From: an uncultured Nitrosomonadales bacterium | GTDB lineage: Bacteria; Pseudomonadota; Gammaproteobacteria; Burkholderiales; Gallionellaceae | Length of the DNA: 10,767 bases | Reading direction: 5' to 3' | NCBI GenBank assembly: GCA_903934275.1 | Contig: CAIZNF010000429.1 | Span: 1-10,767 of the forward strand | In this document: piece after piece, positions 1,925-9,531 of the stretch | How the letters are laid out: the number at the start of each line of letters is the position of its first letter | How positions within the stretch are numbered: position 1 is the stretch's first letter | The notes under the pieces: generated by a model | Told to the model about the DNA's origin: nothing | The model's database searches: none | Seen by the model: only the letters and a program-made list of their open reading frames with translations | Made by a program: the position numbers and the translations under genes

Positions 1925-3124
1925 TCATTCCGTCCGCAACGCCTCCACCGGATCGAGTCGCGCCGCACGCCGCGCCGGCATCACACCCGCTACCAAGCCA
2001 ATGGTGATCGCGCTTAATTCGGCGAGCGCCGCAAATAGCCACGGCGTGTGTACCGGCAACCCCGGAAACAGCAGATGCGCTCCTTGCGCGATACCCACTC
2101 CCAGCGCCAGCCCGGCCAAACCGCCCAGCGCCGACAGCAGTATCGCCTCGCCCAGAAACAGCATCAGCACCTGCCGTTCGCGCGCGCCCAAAGCGCGCAG
2201 CAGGCCGATCTCGGCGGTGCGCTCGGTGACAGCCATAGTCATGATGGTGAGGATGCCGACACCGCCTACCAATAGAGAAATCCCGCCCAGCGCACCGACC
2301 GCAAAGGTGATCACATCCAGCACCGAGCCAAGCACTTCAAGCGCCTTTTCCTGCGGGATCAGCGTGAAGTCTTCGCGCCCGTGCCGCTCTTTGAGTAACG
2401 CGGTGATGGAGTTCACCACGCCTTGCAAGTCAGCGTTGGCTTTGTAGCTCAACTGGATTTCCATCAATCCCGGACGATTGAATAATTCCAGTGCGCGTGC
2501 GGCGGGAATAAACACAGTGTCGTCGAGATCGAACCCAAGCATCTGCCCCTTGGGTTCCATTACTCCGATCACGCGATAGCGTTGCCCGCCGATGCGTAAA
2601 TAGCTGCCGAGCGGGTTTTGCCCGGCAAACAATTCCTGATTTACTTTCGTGCCCAGCACAACCAGCGCGCGCGCCTGAGTAGGATCGTCATCGGGCAGAA
2701 AACTGCCGGTCTGCACATTAATTACCAACACCTTGGTGAGATCGTGTCCCGCCCCAATTACCGTGGTGCGACGCGTCTTGCCATTGAAGCGCAGCTCGGC
2801 ATTGCCCGTTACACTGGGGTTGACGTACTCGATATTCGGCAAGTGGCGCAGGGCCTGCGCATCCTCAATGGAAATTGTCTTGACCGAGCCGAAGATGCCC
2901 ACGTTGCCACCCTGAGTCTGCGTCTTACCGGGCTGAATAGCGATCAGGTTAGTGCCAAACTGACTGAATTCCGCCAGCACAAACTGATGCAATCCTTCGC
3001 CGATGGAAGTGAGCAAGATCACCGCCGTGATACCGATAGCAATGCCTAGGCCGGTCAGGAAGCTGCGCAGCCGATAAGCGACGAAGCTGGAGGTGGTGAG
3101 GCGGATTAGGTCGGGGAATAGCAT
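1925..3124 (-). CDS. MacB/FtsX-type ABC transporter permease (second permease)
   Basis: Inner-membrane permease of 399 residues, full length for a stand-alone MacB-like permease. A first membrane segment lies near residues 22-40 and a periplasmic MacB-type core spans about 45-265. Three more membrane segments follow near 270-298, 318-347 and 363-383. The cytoplasmic ERTAEIGLLRALGA stretch (301-314) and the C-terminal PARRAARLDPVEALR (383-397) are typical of the family. It lacks the ATPase half of true MacB and presumably uses the ATPase at 8842-9531. It should work with the adaptor and the first permease to export a substrate, which cannot be named from sequence. Its ATG lies 21 bases after the stop of the restriction enzyme gene, with only a weak TGGA upstream, so it appears to depend on transcription through the four-gene cassette. 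Confidence 0.93.
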   Translation of the reverse strand: MLFPDLIRLTTSSFVAYRLRSFLTGLGIAIGITAVILLTSIGEGLHQFVLAEFSQFGTNLIAIQPGKTQTQGGNVGIFGSVKTISIEDAQALRHLPNIEYVNPSVTGNAELRFNGKTRRTTVIGAGHDLTKVLVINVQTGSFLPDDDPTQARALVVLGTKVNQELFAGQNPLGSYLRIGGQRYRVIGVMEPKGQMLGFDLDDTVFIPAARALELFNRPGLMEIQLSYKANADLQGVVNSITALLKERHGREDFTLIPQEKALEVLGSVLDVITFAVGALGGISLLVGGVGILTIMTMAVTERTAEIGLLRALGARERQVLMLFLGEAILLSALGGLAGLALGVGIAQGAHLLFPGLPVHTPWLFAALAELSAITIGLVAGVMPARRAARLDPVEALRTE

Positions 3125-3145: not shown

Positions 3146-6100
3146 TCACGCCTCAATCAGCGCAATCTCTTCCGCTGTAAGGCTGAACAGCGCGTACACC
3201 GCACGGTTGAGTGCGGCTTCGTGTTGCGCGATTTGCGCGGTGAAGCCTTGCACGATGTCGCGCTGGCTGTTGAAGTAGCTTCCCCAATCATTGCGCTCGG
3301 CGAGAGGGATGTCCTGCTTGAAGAGTTTTTTCGCCTCAGCGCGGAACGCGGCGAAATCCAGCTCCCACCAGCGTTCCAGCTTCTGCGTGAGCTTGGCCTT
3401 ACCGCCCGGCGCAAGGTCGGGGATGCGTTGGCAAAAAGCAGCCTGTGTGTCGCGGCGCGCTTCGGCGGCTTGCTGGCACTGCTGCGCAAGAGAGGCGAGA
3501 AGGGCTCTTTCTTCTACGCTGACGGCGGGGATGGGCAGAGTTTCGATGTATTGAGTTTTTAGTCGAGAAAAACCACCGCGTATGGCTGGGCATATTTTTC
3601 GCACTAGCCACCAAATAACTCTTGAGTTCAGAACAGACAACAAGCAGAAATCATCAGTAGGTATAGCAAAACCGGTTGTAGGAAAATAGCTCCCGCTTCT
3701 ATCTATTGAAAATTTTGCCGCTTGAGAAATATCGGAATAGATCAACTTTGCTTTTGGAAATTGTTGAGCATAAACTTCTTGCGCTTGCTGTAACTCGAAC
3801 CACGCCTGCTTGGTAGCGCGCTTTTCAAGTTTAGCCTTGAACGGCAACAGATGCGCCTTGATGGCGTGATAATCCTCGATATCGAGCACGCCCTTGGGAA
3901 TGTAAATCAGATACAGGTCTTGCGGCTCAATGCGCCACTTCTTCAAATCCTTGCCTTCCAAAAACGGCTTGAGCAATTCGGTCGATTTCGGGCCTTGCGC
4001 CACCAGCACATCGCGCGTGGCACGATCCACGACGAATGCTTCTTCCAACCCGCTTTTGATGCCATACAGCGGCGAGCCATATATTTGTTTCAGAGTTGCG
4101 CGGCCTTGCATGAGCTTGGTGCGCAGGCGCGCGGGAGCGTCGCCTTCCAGCTGCCAGCTATCGTGTTTCAACTGGTTTTGCAGCATGGTTTGTGCGTGCT
4201 TACGAAAGTACTCAGCCAGGCTGGTTTCGTATTTGGCGGTGAGGGCAAGAAAACGGATTTCCCTCTCCCCCGCTCCCGCAAGCGGGCGAGAGATGTTTTT
4301 CTCCAGAACGATGATCGCCGGATAAGTGGTCACGCCTTCGAACACTTGGAGGTCGCCGAAATCCACCAGCGCCAGCAGGCTGGTCTTTTCCAGCAGGTAA
4401 CGGCGCAAGGGTTCGCCGGAGCCGGTCTTGAAGAAGGTGGAAGATGAGATGTAACCCAGCCGTCCGCCCGCTTTCAGCAGGCGCACGCCCAGCTCAAAGA
4501 AGTAGCAATAAAGATCGGCTCGGTCGCTGGCGACGGTGTAGTGTTTTTCGAGATAGGGCTTGATCGGTTTAATGCGCTCCATGCGCACATACGGCGGGTT
4601 GCCCAGCACCACGTCGAAACCGGACACCCTCTCCCCCTGCCCCTCTCTCGCCTGCGGGCGAGGGGAAAAAACATCGGGGAAGGCGAATTGCCAATCAAAG
4701 GCACGTTCGGAAAATTCCTGCCCCTGAATCAGGCTGTTGCCCACGCGCAGGTTGGCTTCCAGCGATTGCAGCGGCTTGCCGTGCTGCGCAGTCTTGAGCC
4801 ATAGCGATAGCTTGGTGATCTCGATAGATTCCGGGTTGAGGTCAACGCCATAGAGATTCCCGTTGAGAATTTCGCGGTTGATGTCGAACAGGTCGCGTGT
4901 GCCGGTGATGGCTTGCAGTTGCTCGCTGACGTTGCGGTATTCGGCATCCAGCAGGTCGAAGGCGGCAATTAAAAATGCGCCGGAGCCGCAGGCCGGATCG
5001 ACCACCTTGATGTGCTGCAGTTCGTCGCGCCAGGCGTGCCAGAACAGATATTCGGTAAGACGCGCGTGGTCGGTGAGTTTCAGCTTGCCGTGCCTGGCTT
5101 TTTCTTCCTTGCCGGGTGCGCGGTAGCGGAGGTTGCCTTGTTCGTCCTGCGGCTGTTTGGCGTCGAGATAGTTCGCCAGCAGCACATTGCGCCGTTGTTC
5201 GAGATAGCCGCCCAGCGTCTGCTCGACGATGAAGGCGGTGATGTCGTCCGGCGTATAGACCACGCCGTGCTGCTTGCGCTTGCCGGATACGCCGCGCGCC
5301 TGTCTGGCAATTTTTGCTTCGTCCGCCTTGAGCCTGAAGGTGTCGAGATCGGTTATTTCGCGCAGCTCTTCGAGGTCGGCGACGGATTGCTCGAAGATAT
5401 GCCCGAGTACGGCCACGCCGACTTCAGATTGAAAGTCGTATTCGCCCAACTGTCTGAACATCTCGCAGGTGCTGTCCGGCAGCATCAGCCCGTCGACTGC
5501 GGCATCAAGTGCGAAAAGGCCGCCGTTATAGGCCGGGATGCCGAGCGCGGCATTGCCTTTGTCCACTGCGCGAAACAGCCCCTTGAAGTTATCCCAGACA
5601 GGATGGGAAGCCAGCGGGTTGTTCAGCTTATAGGCGGTATCCAGCGTGTGCGCAGGCAGCAACTCGCGGTCTTCGGCAAAGGCGATGAACAGCATCCGGT
5701 CGAGGATGGTTTGCGCGTGGGTGATGATGTCGGCCAGCGGCAAAGCGTTGTTCTGCGCCAGCGCGAGGATGAGTTGGACGCGCCATGCCTTGTAGTCGCT
5801 GTATAGCTGCTGGGTGATTTCTTTTTCCGCATTGGCGCTTTCGGCGAGGAGTTTTTCGGTTTGTCCGCCGAGCAGGTTTTCCGCGCCCAGCAACAGGCGG
5901 AAGCGCTGGTATTCGGCATCGCTGTCGGCCAGCGCGAGCAGATCGAAACGCTCGTAAACCTGCCGCGTGTGCGCATAGGAATAGAGGCGGATTTCCACCA
6001 TATTGGAAAGCACGATGAATTTGCGTCCCGGAATATCCGCCGCATATTCCCACGCCTGCTGTACCGGGGATTTGTGCCGCCCCGGCATGATTGCGTCGAG

Positions 6101-6451
6101 GTTGGTGGTGTCCGCACCCTTGAGCTCGACCGGCGCAATGACTGCACTTTTTCCGCCGCCAAAATGGCCCAGCGCGGCATCGGCGCTGCCTGAGCCGGTG
6201 TGATGTTCTTCGGCGATAGTCTGCGCCGCACCGCTGCCAAAAGGCACATAGCCCAGAATCCCGGCAAAAATTTTCTGGATAAAGGCGCTGCGAATCGCGG
6301 CCTCCTTATTGCTCTTCTTGGTGATGCTGCCATCGCGGATGGTCTGCGCCCAGTCGTGCAGAATCTGCTTGTGCTGTGCCGGTGTCGGCGCGGTTGGGCA
6401 GCGCTTGGCAATAAGGCGCGGATTAACGAGAGGCTGGCGGAATAGTTCCAT
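3146..6451 (-). CDS. Type IIG restriction-modification enzyme (fused nuclease, N6-adenine methylase and specificity domain)
   Basis: Single-chain restriction and methylation enzyme of 1101 residues, within the usual size for Eco57I-type proteins. The N-terminal part carries a PD-(D/E)XK-like nuclease pattern (D91 with E109-L-K111). A helical linker spans about 185-390. The gamma-class methylase core has GVVYTPDDI (396-404, motif X region), motif I DPACGSGAF (485-493), a motif II-like GVDLNP (535-540) and motif IV NPPY (618-621). The C-terminal target-recognition domain (about 750-1000) includes LPIP near its end. Such enzymes methylate adenine at their site on host DNA and cut unmethylated phage DNA; the site cannot be read from the sequence. 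Two features are odd: palindromic repeats translated at residues 595-610 and 719-732, and a 38% GC segment in the recognition domain. The gene starts 5 bases after the winged-helix gene, so the two are likely co-expressed. No separate methylase or specificity gene is needed or seen. Confidence 0.93.
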   Translation of the reverse strand: MELFRQPLVNPRLIAKRCPTAPTPAQHKQILHDWAQTIRDGSITKKSNKEAAIRSAFIQKIFAGILGYVPFGSGAAQTIAEEHHTGSGSADAALGHFGGGKSAVIAPVELKGADTTNLDAIMPGRHKSPVQQAWEYAADIPGRKFIVLSNMVEIRLYSYAHTRQVYERFDLLALADSDAEYQRFRLLLGAENLLGGQTEKLLAESANAEKEITQQLYSDYKAWRVQLILALAQNNALPLADIITHAQTILDRMLFIAFAEDRELLPAHTLDTAYKLNNPLASHPVWDNFKGLFRAVDKGNAALGIPAYNGGLFALDAAVDGLMLPDSTCEMFRQLGEYDFQSEVGVAVLGHIFEQSVADLEELREITDLDTFRLKADEAKIARQARGVSGKRKQHGVVYTPDDITAFIVEQTLGGYLEQRRNVLLANYLDAKQPQDEQGNLRYRAPGKEEKARHGKLKLTDHARLTEYLFWHAWRDELQHIKVVDPACGSGAFLIAAFDLLDAEYRNVSEQLQAITGTRDLFDINREILNGNLYGVDLNPESIEITKLSLWLKTAQHGKPLQSLEANLRVGNSLIQGQEFSERAFDWQFAFPDVFSPRPQAREGQGERVSGFDVVLGNPPYVRMERIKPIKPYLEKHYTVASDRADLYCYFFELGVRLLKAGGRLGYISSSTFFKTGSGEPLRRYLLEKTSLLALVDFGDLQVFEGVTTYPAIIVLEKNISRPLAGAGEREIRFLALTAKYETSLAEYFRKHAQTMLQNQLKHDSWQLEGDAPARLRTKLMQGRATLKQIYGSPLYGIKSGLEEAFVVDRATRDVLVAQGPKSTELLKPFLEGKDLKKWRIEPQDLYLIYIPKGVLDIEDYHAIKAHLLPFKAKLEKRATKQAWFELQQAQEVYAQQFPKAKLIYSDISQAAKFSIDRSGSYFPTTGFAIPTDDFCLLSVLNSRVIWWLVRKICPAIRGGFSRLKTQYIETLPIPAVSVEERALLASLAQQCQQAAEARRDTQAAFCQRIPDLAPGGKAKLTQKLERWWELDFAAFRAEAKKLFKQDIPLAERNDWGSYFNSQRDIVQGFTAQIAQHEAALNRAVYALFSLTAEEIALIEA
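3541..3780 (-). other. AT-rich segment of the predicted target-recognition domain
   Basis: By hand count 92 of 240 bases are G or C (38%), against 63% in 3481-3540 and 55% in 3781-3840. It encodes about residues 891-971 of the restriction enzyme, including SGSYFPTTGFAIP and LNSRVIWWLV, where specificity domains of type IIG and type I enzymes usually contact DNA. The reading frame is intact. The composition break suggests that the recognition part was exchanged by recombination, which is inference. Confidence 0.6.
4259..4300 (-). repeat. C-rich palindromic repeat in frame within the restriction enzyme (copy B)
   Basis: The stretch starts with CCCTCTCCCCC on the plus strand and continues into a CTCCCGC-AA-GCGGGcGAG hairpin with one bulged base. 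On the coding strand it is read as NISRPLAGAGEREI (residues 719-732), close to the SPRPLAGEGQGERG-like peptide obtained when a widespread proteobacterial intergenic repeat is translated. It lies between VLEK and RFLAL in the region just after the methylase core. It resembles the element at 4625-4670 in order, orientation and encoded peptide. Confidence 0.65.
4625..4670 (-). repeat. C-rich palindromic repeat in frame within the restriction enzyme (copy A)
   Basis: On the plus strand a CCCTCTCCCCCTGCCCCTCT block leads into a CTCGCC-TGCG-GGCGAG hairpin followed by GGG and an A run. The coding strand reads it as FSPRPQAREGQGERVS (residues 595-610). The flanks FPDV and GFDVVLGNPPY would normally sit almost directly next to each other in Eco57I-type methylases, so the repeat looks like an insertion just before motif IV. 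The frame stays open and the catalytic motif is intact. Confidence 0.7.
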
Positions 6452-6456
6452 TGCTT

Positions 6457-6840
6457 CTACGCCGCCCGTCTCTCCGGCAATTTCATATCCACCACGATCT
6501 CGTCGTAGGGCGCAAAAACCAAACCTTTTTCGTTCTTCTCAATCGCCATCCATTCGATCAGACGCTCGCAGTCGCTGTGGACATTTTTGTAGTCGCGTTT
6601 AAGTTGGCGCGCAAGTTCCGCAACAGTCATTGCACCACCTTCGCGCAACACACCGATCAATTCCCAACGCTTGGGGGTAAAGGCCGAGAACAACTCACCA
6701 ACATCGTCGAAACCAACACAGAAATAAGGTTGCACCGCTTTGCCTTGCCTGGTGGCTTTCATGGCGGCAACGGCACGCGCGAGGCTGGCAGTCACCGGCT
6801 CGCCCACGGTCAGATTAAGTACGGCATTATTGGTTTTCAT
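6457..6840 (-). CDS. Winged-helix DNA-binding protein, antitoxin/regulator type
   Basis: Protein of 127 residues with no membrane segment. Residues about 50-118 form a helix-turn-helix with wing: FSAFTPKRWELIGVLRE, then AELARQLKRDYKNVHSD as the likely recognition region, and a wing ending near FAPYDEIVVDM. This pattern matches the HVO_A0114/TumA-like family of DNA-binding proteins, often found as antitoxins or as autoregulators of small defence operons. Its ATG overlaps the stop of the nucleotidyltransferase gene by four bases (ATGA), and AGAGG lies seven bases upstream of the ATG, so expression is tightly coupled. It could repress the cassette promoter, neutralise the nucleotidyltransferase, or act as a control protein for the restriction enzyme that starts 5 bases later. 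The family call is moderately sure; the partner is inference. Confidence 0.82.
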   Translation of the reverse strand: MKTNNAVLNLTVGEPVTASLARAVAAMKATRQGKAVQPYFCVGFDDVGELFSAFTPKRWELIGVLREGGAMTVAELARQLKRDYKNVHSDCERLIEWMAIEKNEKGLVFAPYDEIVVDMKLPERRAA

Positions 6841-7316
6841 TTTGCAGCCTCTATCGCGCGCTGCAATATCATTCTATCCATCACATCTTTATCTCGCACG
6901 GTTTGCTTGGTGAGCAGTAATCCTTCGAGAGACAGGGTGCGTACAGGGATGCCGTCGAGATCAACAATTTCTGCATAGCGTGAAAGTGTCTGGTTGGTTT
7001 CGCCGCAGGCATTGAATAATAAATCGATAACAAATTCGTCTGCCACGCGGATCGTTTCGCCTTCTTCGAACCAGATGGGATCGATTTGCTCACTCGCTCT
7101 TTCGGGCAACACCAGCAATGCTTTGATTACCCGTTTTCCCTGCTCGCTGGTTGGAGGTACTAGAAAATCAATATCAGTTGTGGCGCGATAGTAGCCGTGC
7201 GCAAACAAGGCATATCCCCCAATCAGGAAATAATCGACGTTATTCTCGTTGAGGGATTGGATAACAGCTTTCAGGTCGGTTATCGTTGCCGGGCGTGCAT
7301 ATTCCTCTTCAGCCAT
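6837..7316 (-). CDS. MNT/AbiEii-like nucleotidyltransferase, possible toxin
   Basis: Soluble protein of 159 residues. The nucleotidyltransferase core motif is clear: GGYALFAHGYYR begins with G33-G34, followed by the acidic pair D48-I-D50, and D98 in FVIDLLFN may be the third acidic residue. The C-terminal TKQTVRDKDVMDRMIL resembles the conserved lysine/aspartate end of AbiEii-type and DUF6036-type proteins. Family members transfer nucleotides, and several are toxins of type IV-like or MNT-HEPN systems; the target here is unknown. The ATG at 7316 was chosen over an upstream GTG at 7355, because the extra residues lie inside the preceding gene and do not resemble the family. The start overlaps the stop of the 74-residue gene by 8 bases and the end overlaps the winged-helix gene by 4, so the three genes are translationally coupled. 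Confidence 0.85.
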   Translation of the reverse strand: MAEEEYARPATITDLKAVIQSLNENNVDYFLIGGYALFAHGYYRATTDIDFLVPPTSEQGKRVIKALLVLPERASEQIDPIWFEEGETIRVADEFVIDLLFNACGETNQTLSRYAEIVDLDGIPVRTLSLEGLLLTKQTVRDKDVMDRMILQRAIEAAK

Positions 7317-7533
7317 GTCTGCTTTTCTGAACAGCGACCATCGAGTCAACCACACATTCCATCATGTGCCGATCAGCGTCTTCATGAGATTTGTAACGAT
7401 ACACGCCGCGCGGGAAGCAAAAAGTGGACTGCATTTTTTGCATTTCGGTATTGAACAACGCACCTTCTCTCAACAAAGCACCGTCGGCGTGAAAAGTGAT
7501 GTCACGTTCCTTGCGTTTACCGGCAATTTTCAT
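7309..7533 (-). CDS. Small unknown protein, first gene of the inserted cassette
   Basis: Protein of 74 residues that I cannot assign to a named family. It is charged and soluble, with a basic N-terminus (KIAGKRKERD). A central FNTEMQKMQSTFCFPRGVYR leads into a YKSHEDADRHMM helix. The FPRGVYRYKSHEDAD stretch recalls small proteins often encoded just before AbiEii-like nucleotidyltransferases, which suggests a partner or antitoxin role; this is from memory of neighbourhoods and is not proven. Its reality is supported by an excellent ribosome-binding purine tract (GGGGGGAG, 3 bases before the ATG) and by the 8-base overlap with the next gene. It is the first gene after the 113-base gap and so probably lies closest to the cassette's own promoter. 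Confidence 0.75.
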   Translation of the reverse strand: MKIAGKRKERDITFHADGALLREGALFNTEMQKMQSTFCFPRGVYRYKSHEDADRHMMECVVDSMVAVQKSRHG

Positions 7534-7646: not shown

Positions 7647-8855
7647 TCATCGCCCCGCCAGCGCCATCACCGGATCGAGCCGTGCGGCGCGCCGTGCGGG
7701 CCACACGCTGAACAAGATGCCGGTGCCGAGCGATGTGCCGAGTGCCGCCAGTACCGCCCACCAGGGGGCAACCACCGGCAATGAGGGATAGAGCTTTCCG
7801 ATCATCCATACGCCCGCTTCGCCGAGAATAAGGCCAGTTATACTGCCGATGCCGGACAGCAGAATCGCTTCGGCAAAAAACAGGTTTCTGATTTGTGCGG
7901 CGGGTGCGCCCAATGCCTTGAGCAAGCCAATTTCCTTGATGCGTTGCGTGACGGCGATCAGCATCACGTTCATGATGAGGATACCCGCAACTGCGAGGCT
8001 GATGGAGGCGATGCCGCCAACCGCCAATGTCAGTGCGCGCAGAATACGGTCGAAGGTTGCCAGCACGGCATCTTGCGTGATGACGGTCACATCGCGTTCG
8101 CCGTTGTGGCGGCGCAATAAAATCTCCTCAGCATCATGCTTGGCTTGTTCGATGGCATCGCGGCTTTTCGCCTCCACCAGCACGCGGAACAGGCCGGAGG
8201 TATTGAACAACATATGCGCCGACGCGACCGGCACGATGACGATTTCATCAGTATTGAATCCCATTGATTCGCCCTGACTCGCCATCACGCCAACCACGCG
8301 GAAACGCCGGTCTCCCAACCGTATCCAGACACCGATAGCCGACTCCTGACCGAACAACTCGCGCTTGATTTTTGCGCCCAGCACACACACTGACTCGCTG
8401 GAATGCATATCTCCGGCGGGCAGGAATTGCCCTTGTCCCAGGTTCATGTGGCGCACTTCGAGCAGCTCCGCAGTCGAGCCCAGCACCACCACTTCGCGGT
8501 TGCGCGAGTCCCGTGAAATTTGCGACGAACCCAGCGTCAGCGGAGCAATGCGCCCGATGGCACGACTGCGCAATAAAGCCTGCGCATCGTCCAGGCTCAA
8601 TTCGCGCGGAATCTGTCCGAGCAACATGCCCGGCCCTATGCCAGCCGTTTCTGTGCGACCGGGTAACACGATGACCAGATTGGTACCCAGCGAAGAAAAC
8701 TGATTGACGACATAGCGGCGCGCCCCCTCGCCCAACCCGGTCAACACCACAACCGATGCGACACCGATGGACATTGCGAGCATCATCAGCAAGGTGCGTG
8801 CAGGGCTGCCGCGCAGGCTGCTTAACGCGAACTGCACGACATCAATCAGTTTCAT
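7647..8855 (-). CDS. MacB/FtsX-type ABC transporter permease (first permease)
   Basis: Inner-membrane permease of 402 residues. The first membrane segment is near residues 21-40 (MMLAMSIGVASVVVLTG) and the periplasmic MacB-type domain spans about 45-265. Three C-terminal membrane segments lie near 272-300, 324-353 and 363-386. The cytoplasmic QRIKEIGLLKALGA (304-317) and PARRAARLDPVMALA (386-400) match the same positions in the second permease. The two are clearly related but well diverged, which fits a heterodimer or two copies with different roles. The ATG at 8855 was chosen because family homology starts at MKLIDVVQFALSSLRG; a longer frame reaches 8948 inside the ATPase gene. The start overlaps the ATPase stop by 14 bases, so translation is coupled. 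Confidence 0.93.
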   Translation of the reverse strand: MKLIDVVQFALSSLRGSPARTLLMMLAMSIGVASVVVLTGLGEGARRYVVNQFSSLGTNLVIVLPGRTETAGIGPGMLLGQIPRELSLDDAQALLRSRAIGRIAPLTLGSSQISRDSRNREVVVLGSTAELLEVRHMNLGQGQFLPAGDMHSSESVCVLGAKIKRELFGQESAIGVWIRLGDRRFRVVGVMASQGESMGFNTDEIVIVPVASAHMLFNTSGLFRVLVEAKSRDAIEQAKHDAEEILLRRHNGERDVTVITQDAVLATFDRILRALTLAVGGIASISLAVAGILIMNVMLIAVTQRIKEIGLLKALGAPAAQIRNLFFAEAILLSGIGSITGLILGEAGVWMIGKLYPSLPVVAPWWAVLAALGTSLGTGILFSVWPARRAARLDPVMALAGR

Positions 8856-9531
8856 GTGCGCGCCCCATCTCACCGGTGATCTGCCCATCCACCATATGCA
8901 ACTGGCGCGCCGCGCGCCCACCGATGACAGGATCGTGGGTGACAACAATCAGCGCGACTTGTTGCTCCACCAGCTGTTCCAGCAGGTTCATCACTTCCTT
9001 GCCGGTGGTTTGGTCGAGATTGCCGGTCGGCTCGTCGGCCAGCAACACAGCGGGATGCATACTGGTGGCGCGCGCAATCGCCACGCGCTGACGCTGCCCG
9101 CCGGAGAGCTGGTCGGGACGATGATCGGCACGATCCGCCAAGCCGTAATTTACCAGTAGTTGCCGGACACGATCTTTACGTTCGGCGGCGGGCACACCAG
9201 ACAGAATCAACGGCAGCTCAATGTTCATCGCGGCAGTCAGGCGTGGCACCAAATGAAACGCCTGAAATACGAAGCCGATTTTTTCGCTGCGCACTTTGGC
9301 CTGTTGATCGTCGGTCAAATCGGTGACGTTACCACCATCCAGCCGGTAAGTGCCGGAACTCGGACGATCCAGCAGGCCGATCAAATTAAGCAGCGTTGAT
9401 TTACCGGAGCCGGACGGCCCCATGATCGAGACATAATCACCCGCCGCGATATTCAGGTCGATGCCGCGCAACGCGGCGACCTGCTGATCGCCGACCATAA
9501 AGCTGCGGCTGACTTTATCCAGGCGAATCAT
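8842..9531 (-). CDS. ABC transporter ATP-binding protein, LolD/MacB type
   Basis: Cytoplasmic ATPase of 229 residues, the normal length for this family, that powers the MacB-type permeases. All motifs are present: Walker A GPSGSGKST (38-46), Q-loop Q90, signature LSGGQ (142-146), Walker B VLLADE (162-167), D-loop NLD (171-173) and switch histidine H199. The ADEPTGNLD context is typical of the LolD/MacB/FtsE group. Its ATG overlaps the adaptor stop (ATGA) and no Shine-Dalgarno sequence precedes it, so it depends on translation of the adaptor. In MacB proper, ATPase and permease are one chain; here they are separate. The gene's place next to an HlyD-type adaptor argues for efflux and against lipoprotein release (LolCDE). 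Confidence 0.96.
   Translation of the reverse strand: MIRLDKVSRSFMVGDQQVAALRGIDLNIAAGDYVSIMGPSGSGKSTLLNLIGLLDRPSSGTYRLDGGNVTDLTDDQQAKVRSEKIGFVFQAFHLVPRLTAAMNIELPLILSGVPAAERKDRVRQLLVNYGLADRADHRPDQLSGGQRQRVAIARATSMHPAVLLADEPTGNLDQTTGKEVMNLLEQLVEQQVALIVVTHDPVIGGRAARQLHMVDGQITGEMGRAHETD

Follow-up and report, generated by a model that had tools for sequence, protein, structure and literature searches.

A TM/PIT-type palindromic repeat read in frame in a type IIG-like methylase gene and in other core enzyme genes of Gallionella and relatives

In this study, we have analysed a short palindromic repeat that is translated as part of a methylase on a 10,767-nucleotide stretch of DNA (the window) from an uncultured bacterium of the Gallionellaceae. 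We consider it very probable that this is a non-autonomous repeat of about 40 bp, of the TM/PIT type, which inserted in the methylase gene and was kept as a frame-preserving, stop-free insertion in a tolerant loop. In the mechanism that we propose, a dispersed palindromic repeat would have landed in the loop just before the strand leading to the NPPY motif, and would have been retained given that the frame was kept, that no stop codon was brought in and that the loop could accommodate it. The repeat is short and self-complementary and its consensus is free of stop codons; therefore, the protein stays uninterrupted when the net length of a landing is divisible by three, and landings in tolerant loops would persist. 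By the same process, many core enzymes of the genome and of the genus would have acquired in-frame copies, in all six orientation/phase classes, and some loops would receive inserts in several lineages.

Two copies in a methylase gene

The gene that carries the repeat occupies positions 3146 to 6451 on the reverse strand and encodes a protein of 1101 amino acids resembling type IIG restriction-methylases. Its Eco57I and TaqI_C domains, and also an N6_Mtase domain, are matched in Pfam, its best match in PADLOC is REase_MTase_IIG (E 4.8e-122), and its predicted model is similar in Foldseek to CamA, M.BseCI, MmeI and BrxX. Judged from its sequence and predicted model, the protein combines the two parts expected of a type IIG enzyme, namely an N6-adenine methylase core with NPPY and a TaqI-like specificity domain. 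The NPPY motif, which we take to be the catalytic one, is intact (4589 to 4600, reverse strand; residues 618 to 621), falls in invariant columns of the alignment and lies 7 residues past the insert; the methylase would probably still be active with the insert in place. Adjoining the gene, at 6457 to 7355, are a small HVO_A0114-family protein and an AbiEii-like nucleotidyltransferase (19.7 bits, under the Pfam cut-off), possibly a toxin-antitoxin-like pair. MacB-like ABC permease genes at 1925 to 3124 and 7647 to 8948 (NCBIfam, under cut-off) enclose the methylase and the AbiEii-like pair, which gives the impression of a defence cassette inserted in a transporter operon.

According to the first-pass annotation of this DNA, a C/G-rich hairpin is translated in frame as FSPRPQAREGQGERVS directly ahead of NPPY, and this is what we find at 4627 to 4667 (forward strand, CCCTCTCCCC-CTG-CCCCTCTCTC-GCCT-GCGGGCGAGGGGAA). 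On the reverse strand, the translated repeat (4622 to 4666) makes up residues 596 to 610, SPRPQAREGQGERVS, in place of three residues (e.g. KAG) of uninserted homologues. On the window, this copy receives 53.5 bits (E 7.7e-12) from R1, a model built from 16 copies of the host genome including this one. An RNA hairpin as the main feature was rejected, since the folding energy of the RNA differs from that of shuffles by less than two standard deviations (z -0.8 to -1.9).

The first-pass annotation had described the two methylase motifs on either side of the insert as nearly contiguous as a rule, and the homologues agree. We measured the linker between the F-D-W and F-D-V-V-L-G-N-P-P-Y segments in the best 120 of 7910 matches, 118 of which were readable: it has 12 residues in 110, 11 in 2 and 23 to 36 in 6, against 24 in the window protein, which is therefore 12 residues in excess. 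The gap predicted at residues 596 to 610 is present in the alignment, and unrelated sequence of similar length is not seen in many homologues, 112 of the 118 having 11 or 12 residues. In the DNA of two uninserted relatives, Gallionella sp. STC_7 (L067) and Gallionellaceae clean455 (L068), the insert site has the short form. A nearly identical insert is found at this site in P0002 (source ena), which is 88% identical over the searched region, and a variant insert in P0003 (source lgn). On a quick tree of 114 methylase homologues, the longer linkers require at least five changes, or four without P0035, whose 23-residue linker was counted as an insert; the insert-bearing P0003 pairs with the insert-free P0004, with good support, and this pairing sets P0003 apart from P0001 and P0002. 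As carriers, P0035 and also P0121 (17 residues, by eye, outside the count) were rejected, being not recognisably TM/PIT-like, and no further clear carriers emerged when we searched twice for the first methylase insert (16 and 9 proteins).

A second, decayed copy, overlooked in the first-pass annotation, is present in the same gene at 4261 to 4295 (forward strand; about residues 719 to 731), where R1 scores 23.5 bits (E 1e-4) with 6 model positions missing. The loop concerned, between TYPAI.VL and IRFLAL, is of 12 residues in 56 of the 72 homologues (of 120) that our pattern could read, some long inserts (P0035, P0078) being missed by it, and of 16 residues in the window protein. By eye, repeat-like peptides occupy this loop in P0002, P0003, P0004, P0006, P0008, P0009, P0011, P0048 and P0071, and the peptides of P0035 and P0005 are presumably translations of other palindromic repeats. 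In the predicted methylase model, four segments have pLDDT below 50; residues 601 to 606, in the first insert, and 723 to 725, in the second copy, are two of these, a coincidence that may point to tolerant loops, though low confidence would also be expected where few homologues have residues.

The repeat family in the genome and in its core enzymes

The first-pass annotation had taken the repeat for an inserted intergenic one, and in the host genome, probably that of a Gallionella and a draft in 722 contigs with 5.7% contamination, it is indeed dispersed. With up to two mismatches allowed, the pattern CCCTCTCNNNCTGCCCCTCTC of the window copy is found 13 times in this genome and the reversed pattern once; a related 25-base pattern matches once in the window and in none of 200 shuffles. 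R1 has at least 45 matches at E<=0.001, in genes and elsewhere, a lower bound, since scoring covered 150 of the 1058 candidates of the first look. The copies are of about 40 bp and, in the consensus of the 16, consist of a C-block, a mirror image of the C-block and a pairing G-block (CCCTCTCCCC-CAG-CCCCTCTCCC-GCAAG...GAGGGG). A G/C-rich hairpin with an adjacent mirror-symmetric third block is also what defines TM (earlier PIT), the G/C-rich intrastrand-triplex motif that Holder et al. (2015) report from more than 260 genomes with many copies per genome (PMC4666352). By this three-block architecture the repeat qualifies as a putative TM/PIT member, and its letters appear close, by eye, to E. 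coli copies such as CCCTCTCCCTGAGGGAGAGGGTTAGGGTGAGGGG, which is the reverse complement of the present orientation (PMC4666352).

The family extends to relatives. We found the core pattern, at up to one mismatch, in 38 of 61 genomes (the host's own, 36 of the same genus and 24 of the same order), the reversed-pattern control of this search having been discarded as invalid because the reversed pattern is itself nearly the repeat. One relative, G023, a second species (99% complete), has 121 R1 matches. A hand-typed consensus is free of stop codons in all six frames. This is only a mild peculiarity, since among real copies 8 of 16 have no stop in any frame, and 28% of shuffles and 12% of random windows have none either.

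Some copies resemble each other beyond the repeat. A sub-family with a TCCTCAATCCTCTCCC core and an alike right flank (CGAACGAGAA, CAAACGAAAA or CGATCGAAAA) is seen in the host genome at C53:1080, C454:2944, C304:3367, C113:5317 and C448:241, both in genes (AcnA, GltB) and elsewhere. Common flanks also link copies at C123, C25, C454:416 and 572, C412:17193, C671:3174, C555 and C385 (left, near GACTGAATCAC, in some; right, TTGCTTGTTGTCCA or CCCA, in others), and these copies might belong to longer composite repeats.

A copy was called in-gene from the longest stop-free frame across it, followed by homology on both sides. By this procedure, 19 of the 45 copies are in frame within 16 conserved genes of the host genome, the window methylase included, and all six orientation/phase classes are represented (5, 4, 4, 3, 2 and 1 copies); the remaining 26 are either intergenic or in frames that lack evidence of homology on one side or both. 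Compared with solved homologues, extra residues are present at the repeat in MutS, CysS, PurL (two sites), UDP-glucose dehydrogenase, glycine dehydrogenase subunit 2, PgeF and a copper-type P-type ATPase, as they are in MurC (L052) at a short related repeat that belongs neither to the 45 nor to the 19. For PolA, UvrD, a CusA/CzcA-like pump, AcnA (aconitase), GltB (glutamate synthase), HrpA, an AddA/RecB-like helicase and an MmeI-like enzyme, a family model matches before and after the copy without a change of frame. PolA is placed here because its alignment covered only the part downstream of the inserts, and the pump is on balance no longer than its family model (936 residues on 938 positions). 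Copies in ORFs without two-sided matches (L031, L032, L034, L038, L040, L109 and others, and L131 in G023) were not taken as in-gene, and the 19 also exclude a C-terminal HrpA piece (L043), with a related short repeat that is not among the 45. The host assembly has a single MutS and a single CysS, and their insert-bearing forms are therefore probably the working ones. In G023, the 30 best-scoring of the 121 copies, which are no random draw, comprise 6 in frame in LeuRS, ValRS, PurL, KdsB, MetRS and HypE and 24 with no in-gene evidence. The TM/PIT-like coding insert is unique neither to the methylase nor to the species.

Recurrent insertion in PurL and alternative explanations

PurL, present in 38 of the 41 genomes of the genus, offers a comparison across many relatives. 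The site lies between P-W-E and Y-G-K-P and was read in 30 loci, 27 by pattern and 3 by hand (G011, G033 and G064). It holds two residues in 13 of these loci and more in 17, the latter comprising nine with triplex-type palindromes (a class assigned partly by exclusion, which takes in the decayed palindrome of G015 and the variant ones of G014 and G030), six with an unrelated GAAGGG-type palindrome, one with a simple repeat (CACCCCT, in G011) and one with eight residues. The unrelated palindrome, rich in GAAGGG/CCCTTC and larger, is in frame at the site in L155, L157, L158, L159, L162 and L168. The 30 loci favour insert-bearing ones because they were the best matches to a query that itself carries inserts; among 8 matched genomes outside the 30, 6 appear to have the short form (the segments abut, 3 bases apart) and 2 are partial, and the longer form is found in 17 of 36 readable genomes overall. 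A PurL tree of the 27 pattern-read loci, with insert columns removed, requires at least seven changes between presence and absence, five of them forced by starred branches and with gain and loss indistinguishable, and at least 10 changes when three states are distinguished; the three hand-read loci are outside it. On either side of most PurL inserts there is a tyrosine, x-Tyr before and Tyr-Gly after (xY...xY), which might look like a duplication of target codons or the replacement of an ancestral insert.

Such presence and absence between relatives suggests that the repeat is mobile. We infer this mobility only, because neither target-site duplication, in 43 of the 45 copies, nor a cognate Y1 transposase, at four of five loci, was found. 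As to duplication, the word shared by the two flanks of these 43 copies averaged 2.44 at 8 bases and 2.38 in shuffled pairs, and at 12 and 18 bases there was likewise no excess over shuffled pairs. In four of five Y1_Tnp loci, with up to 1.5 kb of flank, no cognate Y1 transposase was found: three have no repeat copy, and the fourth, L066, has two that are more than 1.2 kb away. A RAYT transposase as the mover was rejected on this ground. In L066, GTAG-type palindromes (GTAGGTCGGGCTCCGCCCGAC and relatives) are present at 1299 to 1353, 1878 to 1931 and 3048 to 3102 around the Y1 transposase gene, which by eye is between tgt-like and queA-like genes; they form with it a separate REP/RAYT system of the same genome. 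Copies of our repeat might arise at stalled forks or be moved by an enzyme supplied in trans.

One could ask whether insertion is targeted beyond what tolerance would explain, the repeats preferring certain DNA sequences so that the hot spots would be a landing preference. Exact sites do recur, in PurL and in the two methylase loops, and few copies have a G directly ahead of the C-block (5 and 2 of 43 at -1 and -2), which may reflect how the model draws its ends. However, the 43 copies have no duplication and no other plain flank preference (base counts by eye), and the PurL site is common to different repeat families; we regard targeting as rather unlikely. Selection for a useful insert, whether a hairpin or triplex that slows replication, transcription or translation or a Pro/Gly-rich linker that functions in the protein, seems to us improbable. 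It would account for several lineages carrying inserts at the same PurL site and in the two methylase loops, and several of the hosts act in DNA repair or replication (MutS, PolA, UvrD, AddA-like), as is reported for other REPs (PMC3733652), but a single PurL site holds unrelated inserts that differ in length and sequence, 13 of 30 relatives make do with two residues there, all six orientation/phase classes occur, and both inserts of the window protein fall in segments that are modelled with low confidence. In tolerated landings, the inserted peptide would be close to neutral.

We regard the last two explanations as very improbable. Local slippage could have given low-complexity sequence that merely resembles a repeat that is itself C/G-rich, as in the plainly simple PurL insert of G011, but the window copy fits the family along all 41 positions (in a model that includes it) and 12 similar copies are found elsewhere in the host genome. 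An assembly or binning artefact might be suspected in a contaminated draft of this many contigs, but P0002 and P0003, which come from other sources, have the insert at the same place, and in-frame inserts are found in other genomes of the genus, some of them in 5 to 30 contigs.

Relation to known repeats and meaning

The first-pass annotation had likened the insert to the Rickettsia palindromic elements (RPEs), and the likeness is apt, with 16 conserved genes of the host genome carrying in-frame copies with homology on both sides; identity with RPEs is not supported. RPEs are likewise palindromic repeats found in frame in many unrelated genes (PMC10969869, PMC3733652). They are described as being of about 150 bp, with a conserved peptide for each RPE (PMC10969869), whereas the present repeat is of about 40 bp and its 19 in-gene copies are in six orientation/phase classes. 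Size alone fails to separate the two because RPE-4 and RPE-6 of R. conorii, treated as CGTC-tagged repeats, are short too; the CGTC tag does separate them (PMC3733652). By analogy, the best reading is that the repeat works like an RPE but belongs to another family.

Di Nocera et al. (2013) described GTAG/CGTC REPs wholly inside ORFs of several bacteria, many in genes for DNA synthesis or repair (PMC3733652). Our repeat is similarly a short palindrome within ORFs, with DNA-repair genes among its hosts. In contrast, neither tetranucleotide is in its consensus, and it had no RAYT association at four loci. They report one case of a REP at the same site, recB of two Xanthomonas species, to be set against one PurL site with unrelated inserts across a genus here (PMC3733652). 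MITEs are also dispersed and self-complementary, but no target-site duplication was found in 43 of 45 copies, which are only about 40 bp long. As for TM/PIT itself, the E. coli copies are described as always intergenic and with no link there to mobile elements (PMC4666352), unlike the 19 of 45 copies that are in frame within conserved genes here.

In-frame palindromes are known already in Rickettsia and, as GTAG/CGTC REPs, in other bacteria (PMC3733652, PMC10969869). Among the papers listed, our literature search found no description of TM/PIT as an insert inside genes, which supports its absence from print weakly. Within the literature searched, what appears to be new is TM/PIT as a coding insert, its abundance in Gallionella core enzymes and the unrelated inserts at one site across a genus.

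In conclusion, our results extend in-frame palindromic insertion from the Rickettsia elements and the tagged REPs to the very widespread TM/PIT motif, reported as intergenic in E. coli (PMC4666352), in a lineage of which dozens of relatives have been sequenced. Within the genus, a given loop may or may not hold an insert, and the inserts are of different kinds; the movement of the palindromes and the importance of their peptides thereby become testable by comparison. Importantly, annotators should not take repeat-derived peptides for domains. From the inserts one can also read, as from a natural map, where MutS, PolA, PurL, aminoacyl-tRNA synthetases and type IIG methylases tolerate insertion. 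More broadly, and only tentatively, we suggest that in Gallionella and its relatives triplex-type palindromes may enter essential enzyme genes in frame at a high rate and be an active source of protein sequence. The PurL loop between PWE and YGKP and the two type IIG methylase loops might then be true landing pads, with unrelated palindromes entering, replacing one another and leaving, and a structure-driven dispersal without a dedicated transposase might keep lengthening and trimming core proteins.
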